Assembly: GCA_021777835.1 (NCBI GenBank) | Contig: JAJYDC010000004.1 | Location: 62,001 to 126,000 of the forward strand | DNA from: Bacteroidota bacterium | GTDB lineage: Bacteria; Bacteroidota; Ignavibacteria; Ignavibacteriales; Ignavibacteriaceae | Reading direction: 5' to 3' | DNA length: 64,000 nucleotides | Shown here: in pieces, positions 2,703 through 6,357 of the stretch | Layout of the letters: the number at the start of each line of letters is the position of its first letter | Position numbering within the stretch: position 1 is the first letter of the stretch | Position numbers and translations under genes: made by a program | Notes under the pieces: generated by a model | The model's database searches: none | What the model was told of the DNA's origin: nothing | What the model saw: the letters and a program-made list of their open reading frames with translations, nothing else

Positions 2703-5060
2703 TTAAACAGCATTAACTTTGTCATCAGTATAGTATTTAACTTTTTCAATAAATTCCTGACTATCGATTGGTTTAGGAATATAATCGGTTGCTCCGGCTT
2801 CTAGGCACTTTTCTCTATCGCCTTTCATAGCAAATGCAGTTAGGGCAATAATTGGCACTTCCTTATAATCTTTCATCTGTCTAATTTTCTCGGTTGCTTC
2901 AAATCCATTCATTACCGGCATTTGCATATCCATAAGTATTAGATCAAATTTTTGCTTTTGTACTGCCTCAACAGCCTCAGCTCCATTTTCAACAACTACT
3001 ATCGATTCAAAATTATTTTTCTTAAGAAGTCTAGTAACAATTATTTGAGAATGCTTATAATCCTCAACCAAAAGAATTTTAATAGAATCCTTTTTGATAG
3101 CAATTTCTTCCGGTGTCGGCGGTTCATCAAACCGGTTAATCATCTGAGTAATAGCGTCAGAAAGTTGTTCTATATTTGTACTACTTTTCTTAAGGAGGTC
3201 CGAAAACATTCCATCAATCTTTTTTATATCTTCCTGATAATTTTCTTTACCAGTATAGATTATTATAGGCAGATTCGAAAATTTAGGGTTTGATTTTATT
3301 TGTTTAATCAAATCGAATCCGCTAATCTCAGGCATATCAAGGTCTATGATTGCAAGATCAAGAGTCAATGCCTCTATCATATTTGCTACTCGAGAAGAAT
3401 GAGACTCTGCAATTGCATTAAACCCCGCTTGTTCAATTGCTTCTTTAATTAAGCTTAAGGTAGGAATATCATCGTCAACAATTAAAATATTTGAGTCTTT
3501 TTTAAGTCTATAACTCGTCAAGACTTCTATAAGAAATTTATACTGGATAGGTTTTACAAAATACTCAACAGCGCCCATTAAAAAGGCTTTTTGCTGTTCA
3601 GCTTCGACAGAGCAAACTATTACAGGTGTATTTTTAGCGTTTTTATGTTCCCTAATTCTTTTGAGTAACTCAAAACCGTTAGCATCAGGTAAAACAATGT
3701 CCATAAGCACGGCAAGGAAAACTTCTTTATCAATCATTTTTATAGCTTGCTCTGCTGAGTTAACTATAGTCGGCTCATATCCCCACTTATTAAGGTAATT
3801 GCTTAGTAGCTTTGAGGTTGCATAATCATCTTCTACGACCAAAACTTTGTTTTTCTTTCCCGGTTTAGGTAGGGCGCTTATTTGTTTCTCAATTGTTGAA
3901 ACATTTTCGGAACCAATATTAAAATTGTAGGTAGTGCCTTTGCCCAATGAACTAGTGACCTCTATTTCTCCTTTTAAAAGTTCGATATATTTCTTTGCAA
4001 GAAGGAGGCTCAAACCTGTAGTGCTTCCTATCTTTGGATTTCCGAGTTCAATAAGGGAAAACGGTTTAAAAATTTCTTTTAGTTTATTTACAGAAATACC
4101 GGAACTAGTGTCGCTGATTCTAAAGTTAATCTTGTCTGATGATCCTTCAGATACCGATATTGATATTTTCCCTTTTTCAGTTAATCTTAAAGAATAAGTT
4201 ATTATGTTAGTAAAAATAAATCGAAGTTTTTGTACGTCAAGTCTAATGAAATCGGGTAATGTCTTTTCTATGCTAACTATAAACTCGATCTTATTCTTAT
4301 TTATCTTATCATTGAATGTTTTTATAACATCATCTACAAATGATTTGATATTAGTGTTTGACAATGCAGGCTTGCAGGATCCGTTATCAATTTTAGCAAG
4401 ATCGATTAAATCATTTAGTTCTGCAAGTAAATTGAAAGCGCTCTCTTTAAGAGTTGTTACATATTCTTTTTGAGTCTGGGTCAAATTATCTTCATACAAA
4501 AGGGAAGCAAAACCCATTATACTATTGACCGGAGTTCTAAGTTCCTGGGCTATATCAGAAATAAGCTCTGCTGTAGAAGTGGATGAAGACTTATCATTAC
4601 TTATCCAAATATTTACAATACTTGAAAGAATTTCGCCAACTGCTTCTATATTTTCTTTATCAGCTAAAGTAAATGCTGATTTCTTTGCAAGTTTTAATAA
4701 AATTGCGTTCTTAAGTGATGATTTTATTATTAAGCAAGATTCATATATTACATACTCCGAAATCTGAATTTCACAATCGCTCTGAGTATTTAATGATATT
4801 GCTTTAGATTTTTCTTTAAGTAGGCTACACGACTTACACTCAAAAACAGAATTTACCGAATATGATTTTTTTACATCACTTGATTTGCCGGTTAAGATGA
4901 TCCTATTTTGTTCATCAAATTTGAATAAAGCAGCGGATTGTAATTCATACTCATCTACTAAGAATTTGCATATTTCATTCTGGAAATCATGAGGAGATTT
5001 GGCTGCAAGGTTTAGCAGGTTGCTAATTTTGTTAAGAAATTCGGTCTTAGAATTTTGCAT
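2703..5060 (-). CDS. Hybrid sensor kinase-like protein: N-terminal GAF-like region, degenerate HisKA/HATPase, three receiver domains
   Basis: 785 aa; H-box region AQELRTPVNSIMGF, HATPase-like segment, then three receivers each with the conserved Asp (LMDIVLPD, IIDLDMPE, LMDMQMPV). Confidence 0.88.
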   Translation of the reverse strand: MQNSKTEFLNKISNLLNLAAKSPHDFQNEICKFLVDEYELQSAALFKFDEQNRIILTGKSSDVKKSYSVNSVFECKSCSLLKEKSKAISLNTQSDCEIQISEYVIYESCLIIKSSLKNAILLKLAKKSAFTLADKENIEAVGEILSSIVNIWISNDKSSSTSTAELISDIAQELRTPVNSIMGFASLLYEDNLTQTQKEYVTTLKESAFNLLAELNDLIDLAKIDNGSCKPALSNTNIKSFVDDVIKTFNDKINKNKIEFIVSIEKTLPDFIRLDVQKLRFIFTNIITYSLRLTEKGKISISVSEGSSDKINFRISDTSSGISVNKLKEIFKPFSLIELGNPKIGSTTGLSLLLAKKYIELLKGEIEVTSSLGKGTTYNFNIGSENVSTIEKQISALPKPGKKNKVLVVEDDYATSKLLSNYLNKWGYEPTIVNSAEQAIKMIDKEVFLAVLMDIVLPDANGFELLKRIREHKNAKNTPVIVCSVEAEQQKAFLMGAVEYFVKPIQYKFLIEVLTSYRLKKDSNILIVDDDIPTLSLIKEAIEQAGFNAIAESHSSRVANMIEALTLDLAIIDLDMPEISGFDLIKQIKSNPKFSNLPIIIYTGKENYQEDIKKIDGMFSDLLKKSSTNIEQLSDAITQMINRFDEPPTPEEIAIKKDSIKILLVEDYKHSQIIVTRLLKKNNFESIVVVENGAEAVEAVQKQKFDLILMDMQMPVMNGFEATEKIRQMKDYKEVPIIALTAFAMKGDREKCLEAGATDYIPKPIDSQEFIEKVKYYTDDKVNAV

Positions 5061-5307: not shown

Positions 5308-6357
5308 ATGGTAACAAAGGCAAAAATACTAATTGCTGAAGATGAAAATATTATTGCAATTGATATTAGTAGAACATTGCAGAAATTAGGATATATTGTC
5401 CTTGGCTCTTCAAGAACCGGTAAAGAAATAATAAAAAAGTCTGAAGCGCTAAAACCTGATTTGGTTTTAATGGATATCATTCTTCATGAGGAGATGACTG
5501 GAATAGAGGCAGCGGAAAGTATTATGAAAGGTCTTGATATTCCTGTCGTATATTTAACAGCACTTGCAGATGATGAAACACTTCATCACGCAAAAATTAC
5601 AGAGCCATTTGGATATGTGCTAAAGCCGTTTGACGAGAGGACCTTACATTCGGCAATCGAAATAGCCTTGTATAAACATAAAATTAGTCGTCAGCTAAAG
5701 GAGAGAACCCTAGAATTAGAAGAGGAGAGAAACAAATCAAATGAGCTTCTTCATAATATTTTCCCAGCCGAAATAGTTAAGGAATTAAGAGAAAATGGTT
5801 TTATAAAACCTCGTGAGTTTTCAAATGTCACTCTTCTTTTTACTGATTTCCAAGGTTTTACCTCAATGGCTTCTAAAATGCCGCCGCAAATTCTTGTAAA
5901 TGAACTTAATGATATTTTCAAAAGTTTTGATACAATTTTGGAAAGCCACCAACTGGAAAAATTAAAAACGATGGGTGATTCATATATGGTTGCAGGCGGT
6001 TTACCAAAAGAAAATTCAGACCATGCTAAAAGGATAATCGATGCTGCACTTGAAATGCAGTCGTTCCTTAGCAATAGGAATCTAACTTCAGAATATAAAT
6101 GGGAAATGCGTTCCGGAGCCCACTCCGGTAATGTTGTTGCAGGAGTTGTGGGGTTGAAAAAATTCACATATGATGTTTGGGGAAACACTGTTAATATTGC
6201 AAACTTAATGGAGCGCTATAGTATGCCGGGAATGCTTACTGTAACTGAAGCTACTTATAATCTTGTTAAAGAAAATTACCATTTTAAATTTAAAGAGAAA
6301 GTTGATGTTATAGGCAACGGAGAGATAAACACTTATTTTGTACTAGGAGCCAAGTAG
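5308..6357 (+). CDS. Response regulator with class III adenylate/guanylate cyclase output domain
   Basis: 349 aa; receiver (AEDENII, LMDIIL, LKPF), coiled coil, cyclase motifs LFTDFQGFT, KLKTMGDSYM, FTYDVWGNTVNIAN. Confidence 0.93.
   Translation: MVTKAKILIAEDENIIAIDISRTLQKLGYIVLGSSRTGKEIIKKSEALKPDLVLMDIILHEEMTGIEAAESIMKGLDIPVVYLTALADDETLHHAKITEPFGYVLKPFDERTLHSAIEIALYKHKISRQLKERTLELEEERNKSNELLHNIFPAEIVKELRENGFIKPREFSNVTLLFTDFQGFTSMASKMPPQILVNELNDIFKSFDTILESHQLEKLKTMGDSYMVAGGLPKENSDHAKRIIDAALEMQSFLSNRNLTSEYKWEMRSGAHSGNVVAGVVGLKKFTYDVWGNTVNIANLMERYSMPGMLTVTEATYNLVKENYHFKFKEKVDVIGNGEINTYFVLGAK

Follow-up and report, generated by a model that had tools for sequence, protein, structure and literature searches.

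What remains of a hybrid histidine kinase once its kinase chemistry is gone? The question is raised by a reverse-strand gene at positions 2703 to 5060 of the window, the whole 64,000-nucleotide stretch of DNA that was analyzed. Its reading frame is intact and encodes 785 aa, in which Pfam detected, above cut-off, a HisKA domain (residues 165 to 227, 51.8 bits), an HATPase_c domain (residues 275 to 381, 58.2 bits), and three Response_reg domains C-terminal to the latter. This is the architecture of a hybrid histidine kinase in a single chain, and Pfam found no output domain beyond the three receivers. All features of the protein lie on the same strand. The pseudo-DHp (HisKA) domain (residues 163 to 227, positions 4380 to 4574) has SDIAQELRTPVNSI as its H-box, with Gln172 (CAG, positions 4545 to 4547) at the phospho-acceptor His position, and the pseudo-ATPase (CA) domain (residues 275 to 381, positions 3918 to 4238) has the N-box NIITYSLRLT, with Tyr289 (TAT, positions 4194 to 4196) at the Mg-coordinating Asn. 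The G1 box is degenerate (DTSSGI, positions 4095 to 4112), as is the G2 box (TTGLSL, positions 4005 to 4022), and both fall short of the glycines of an active kinase. Only four histidines occur in the protein, at residues 24, 472, 554, and 670, and none of them is in the DHp or ATPase domains. E173 and T176, at His+1 and His+4, read as a HisKA-type phosphatase motif.

A sequence-only reading of this DNA had reported the His-to-Gln and Asn-to-Tyr replacements and the two altered glycine boxes, and the letters agree with it throughout. It had also stated that each receiver keeps its phospho-acceptor Asp, as is the case for receiver 1 (positions 3516 to 3854; D454 at 3699 to 3701), receiver 2 (positions 3141 to 3494; D573 at 3342 to 3344), and receiver 3 (positions 2736 to 3083; D711 at 2928 to 2930). 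The acid pair, Asp, Thr/Ser, and Lys of a phosphate-accepting receiver are present in all three and in nearly all orthologues.

The window's own genome yielded 52 HisKA matches. Among the approximately 50 of these domains that could be read at the His column, only three lacked His, which makes the lesion more than chance. Both His and the N-box Asn were missing only from the window protein and from L231 (G000:C54:14588-14764), another degenerate kinase. A further degenerate kinase of this genome, L221 (G000:C58:3078-3266), has its His and a broken ATPase domain.

Distribution of the family was analyzed in 59 related genomes and in a separate class-wide draw (Ignavibacteria) that included 59 genomes of the same order. 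Full-length relatives of 42 to 87% identity were found among the 59 related genomes, and in the class-wide draw 58 of the 59 genomes of the order carried one copy. Outside the order, a weak match (~33 to 36% identity over kinase and receivers) was obtained in five genomes only. All five of these proteins have intact catalytic boxes, and the one scanned with Pfam, L178, combines PAS, three receivers, and Hpt in a canonical hybrid kinase. The named records with a match likewise belong to Ignavibacteria (Ignavibacteriaceae, Ignavibacterium, and Melioribacteraceae). Within the taxonomic family of genome G058, matches were present in 70 of 79 genomes, and in 54 of 56 among those with good completeness. 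Two genomes (G006 and G025) lack both this gene and its neighbor gltX, probably through assembly gaps. Judged by orthology and domain layout, the window protein is a member of an order-restricted, single-copy family with the arrangement GAF(4 Cys), pseudo-DHp, pseudo-ATPase, REC1, REC2, REC3. In the open-access papers searched, neither triple-receiver pseudokinases nor this Ignavibacteria gene were found to be described.

Nine catalytic residues (H172, N285, N289, D317, G319, G321, G347, G349, and G351) were scored in 80 orthologues. None has all nine, seven being the highest number retained. All 80 lack the first G2 Gly and about half lack the second G1 residue, also a Gly, so these lesions appear to be old; loss of the first G2 Gly is probably ancestral in the order. 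At the His column, 19 orthologues have His, 23 Asn, 16 Gln, and 7 Ser, and the remainder have ten further residues among them; the Mg-coordinating Asn is retained in 10 and lost in 70. His and Mg-Asn occur together in L031 and L145 only. These two, with L023 and L025, retain six or seven of the nine residues and might have weak residual activity. At the other extreme are L046 and L177, in which Pfam detects no kinase, yet three receivers.

On a tree of the receivers, no fewer than six changes are needed to explain the presence or absence of His, and no fewer than 26 to explain the residue letters. The CAG codon is shared by the window species and two sister species (L010 and L011), and other sister species in the same genus (L012 and others) have CAC or CAT, a pattern from which the window's Gln arose in its own small clade and is recent. 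The divergent outgroup attaches by a very long branch, and the ancestral state was therefore inferred mainly from within the order. Because the ATP-lid lesion is common to all members, kinase catalysis would have been lost early in the family. Simple decay or a sequencing error was ruled out, since L010 and L011 have the same Gln codon, the frame is unbroken, and purifying selection acts on the kinase core. A strain-specific mutation of an active kinase was ruled out as well, because the His-bearing relatives are without the first G2 Gly and, in nearly every case, without the Mg-Asn.

The sequence-only reading had proposed a pseudokinase, and the order-wide catalytic lesions bear this out. It had named orthologues with His at this column as evidence to the contrary; such orthologues exist in the same genus, yet they too lack the Mg-Asn, and the pseudokinase reading stands. 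What did not survive comparison is any special status of Gln and Tyr themselves, whose conservation it had suggested checking. Among the 71 columns of the DHp domain, N179 ranked first in conservation and E173 eleventh, with the His column 64th, and the Mg-Asn column ranked 101st among the 124 columns of the ATPase domain. Thus, the catalytic positions drift while those that bear the fold hold.

That the protein is not simply decaying, as also suggested earlier, was confirmed by a median dN/dS of ~0.08 for the kinase core. By domain, median dN/dS over 16 close pairs was 0.12 for GAF, 0.08 for DHp, 0.07 for ATPase, 0.01 for REC1, 0.03 for REC2, and 0.01 for REC3, values that are rough because synonymous sites are saturated in many pairs. 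Across the order, invariant columns numbered 18 in REC1, 30 in REC2, and 50 in REC3, and the GAF, DHp, and ATPase domains had none. REC3 is the most conserved part of the protein, and its invariant columns (50 of 116) extend beyond the active site and include the EDYKHSQIIVTRLL stretch. The phospho-acceptor Asp is retained in 76/82 members for D454, 81/81 for D573, and 79/80 for D711. The six members without it in REC1, the receiver that adjoins the kinase, have Asn instead, and their kinases score 1, 1, 1, 1, 1, and 3 of the nine residues versus a median of 4. With catalytic residues lost across orthologues of a gene that stays under selection, the protein can be classed with pseudo-histidine kinases in the general, DivL-type sense. 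Comparison of the orthologues shows His and Asn drifting away many times after an apparently early loss of catalysis, and receivers, above all REC3, that are strongly constrained.

One species has lost the kinase half altogether. In G058, a 394-aa gene with its own start codon (L142:5992-7191) lies between clpP and gltX and encodes only REC-REC-REC, with the whole GAF and kinase half missing. Nothing resembling the N-terminal or kinase half was found upstream of it, and no relative of the N-terminal half was seen in the G058 genome, which elsewhere had only generic kinases. Two congeneric species carry the gene at full length. The receiver-only form is one event, in one assembly of a single species.

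The N-terminal 155 residues (positions 4596 to 5060) belong to no Pfam family; Pfam gave only chance matches for this domain, and a profile search against solved structures gave no match. An AlphaFold model of residues 1 to 155 (pLDDT 85.8, pTM 0.82) had GAF domains as its best Foldseek matches (E ~5e-5), which points to a GAF fold. Within it lies a stretch with C75, C78, C96, and C109 (positions 4734 to 4838). All four are kept by 67 of the 78 orthologues, and a joint loss of most or all of them is seen in four members. As a guess, the four Cys may form a metal, Fe-S, or thiol redox site. In the full-length model (mean pLDDT 78.9, pTM 0.40), the domains are good and their arrangement is uncertain. 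Structural matches of the modeled kinase half include active kinases along with DivL (4q20) and RetS (6dk7/6dk8), and as modeled the kinase fold is kept though the chemistry is gone.

The gene is followed on the same strand by gltX, encoding glutamyl-tRNA synthetase (positions 1152 to 2621), identified by reading its translation and by orthologues 60 to 82% identical at the same place. This order was found at 72 of the 79 informative loci; gltX was absent at ten loci, three of which are contig ends and hence uninformative. The gap to gltX is 3 to 281 bp in 68 of the 72 loci and 81 bp in the window, where no terminator-like site was found in it. Co-transcription with gltX is plausible from this arrangement, and the stability of the link suggests shared expression or a housekeeping role. 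Upstream, the genes vary among loci. The window's divergent neighbor (positions 5308 to 6357, forward strand), a receiver fused to an adenylate/guanylate cyclase domain, adjoins the gene in only five loci, including this one. The gltX of G035 (L185, G035:C78) was not counted as a gltX locus of the order, as it lies on a GC-rich contig next to a MoxR-like frame. That genome is otherwise without the family, and L185 may reflect contamination or a divergent genome.

DivL is not known to carry receivers; RetS has two of them, along with a sensor region in the membrane. The sensor domains of DivL are PAS domains, and its His position is occupied by a conserved Tyr or, rarely, Ala, whereas the family described here has a GAF fold, three receivers in cis, and Gln, Asn, Ser, His, or another residue at that column, and is thus not a set of DivL orthologues. 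The two are alike in that DivL of Caulobacter keeps the HisKA/HATPase fold with its His replaced (PMC4211667). RetS of Pseudomonas is likewise a hybrid kinase with receivers, and it acts on another kinase rather than via its own pathway (PMC12189002); the present family differs in having a GAF domain and three receivers, in its loss of catalysis across the order, and in its link to gltX. Canonical hybrid kinases of the same class that also have three receivers (the f13 family, with a frame of ~1066 aa, and, within the order, paralogues of ~1180 aa) share the order DHp, ATPase, REC, REC, REC, but their boxes are intact (HELRTP, N-box Asn, DTGIGI, and GTGLGL) and identity is only ~30 to 35%; f13 differs further in its PAS input and C-terminal Hpt. 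The canonical ~1180-aa three-receiver membrane kinase was seen at L238:5545-9066 and L245:4099-7647 with neighbors that look like genes for type IV pilus assembly and secretin, and in L245 its second receiver seems to lack the Asp (VINLTSPSS). For the Cys-rich GAF domain, a precedent is the Fe-S GAF domain of the histidine kinase Hik2/chloroplast sensor kinase, which binds [3Fe-4S] (PMC13421787). Hik2 differs in having no triple receiver, and the cofactor of the window GAF domain is a candidate only.

We consider it probable, though well short of certain, that the protein is a kinase-dead triple-receiver platform that is phosphorylated and read in trans. The receivers would be charged and read by one or more separate proteins, either kinases or phosphotransfer proteins, with a specific partner for the read-out; no partner kinase or HPt for the window protein was identified among the genomes examined. 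The pseudokinase half would keep its fold as a dimerization and docking element, through which the GAF domain, possibly redox- or metal-sensing, could bias the receivers. Dephosphorylation of a receiver may still be possible through the E-x-x-T/N motif retained beside the lost His. This weaker suggestion is made because E/D at His+1 occurs with T/N at His+4 in 46 of the 61 members without His, and because in EnvZ the His enhances phosphatase activity but is not required for it (PMC3510030). The sequence-only reading had offered receivers phosphorylated in trans on a pseudokinase scaffold as one of two options; the pseudokinase and the conserved receivers fit this. A bolder and rather doubtful extension would make the protein an order-wide hub, an ex-kinase turned receiver-only receptor supplied with phosphate by other kinases, in which phosphate would be erased under sensor control by the four-Cys GAF domain and the E-x-x-T/N motif of the pseudo-DHp domain, and the receivers would give a graded read-out tied to a gltX housekeeping unit.

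Information could instead flow in reverse, with the pseudo-DHp and ATPase domains binding a phosphorylated partner regulator, or the protein's own receiver, and informing another kinase. DivL, a broken kinase with Tyr at the His position, can sense a phosphorylated receiver in this way without being active as a kinase (PMC4211667), DivL 4q20 is among the structures that the model matches, and the DHp domain is kept save for the His column. This reading is nevertheless unlikely, as the kinase half is the fast-evolving part with no invariant column, is wholly deleted in L142, and varies at the residue that in DivL is a conserved Tyr. The same conserved DHp positions would suit a heterodimer with a canonical kinase, e.g., the ~1180-aa three-receiver membrane kinase of the order, that inhibits the partner or drains its phosphate. 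RetS siphons phosphate from and dephosphorylates GacS (PMC12189002), and both the order and the window's own genome contain a canonical relative with three receivers. DHp-DHp pairing, however, is impossible for the receiver-only L142 protein, the two genes are not neighbors, and the candidate partner was picked by architecture only, which leaves such pairing quite unlikely.

Three intact receivers with no output domain would also be expected of a phosphate sink or buffer, the other option raised earlier, in which the receivers merely take up phosphate that other kinases supply and have no specific output. In sequence, such a sink and a scaffold would look alike. A sink needs only a phosphorylatable Asp, whereas the invariance of REC3 beyond its active site points to a specific partner, and we regard this option as highly improbable. 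Almost no credence is given to a kinase that is still active in cis, by autophosphorylation on another residue or through a non-canonical ATP site. The fold is kept, and some relatives have His and most boxes, but residues 25 to 471 of the window protein contain zero His, and the Mg-Asn and first G2 Gly are lost from 70/80 and 80/80 orthologues, respectively.

The platform phosphorylated and read in trans thus remains our preferred reading of a protein that domain annotation would label a hybrid sensor kinase, and that is not one in the usual sense. Pseudo-histidine kinases are a known kind, and what is new here is best called a pseudokinase with three receivers whose gene belongs to the core set of an order and in which many stages of kinase loss are preserved. 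Such proteins are known from few cases, whereas this one order shows every stage, from nearly complete motifs through scattered losses and an unrecognizable kinase to removal of the kinase in one species. These natural variants make it testable what a hybrid kinase keeps when its kinase part can be dispensed with.
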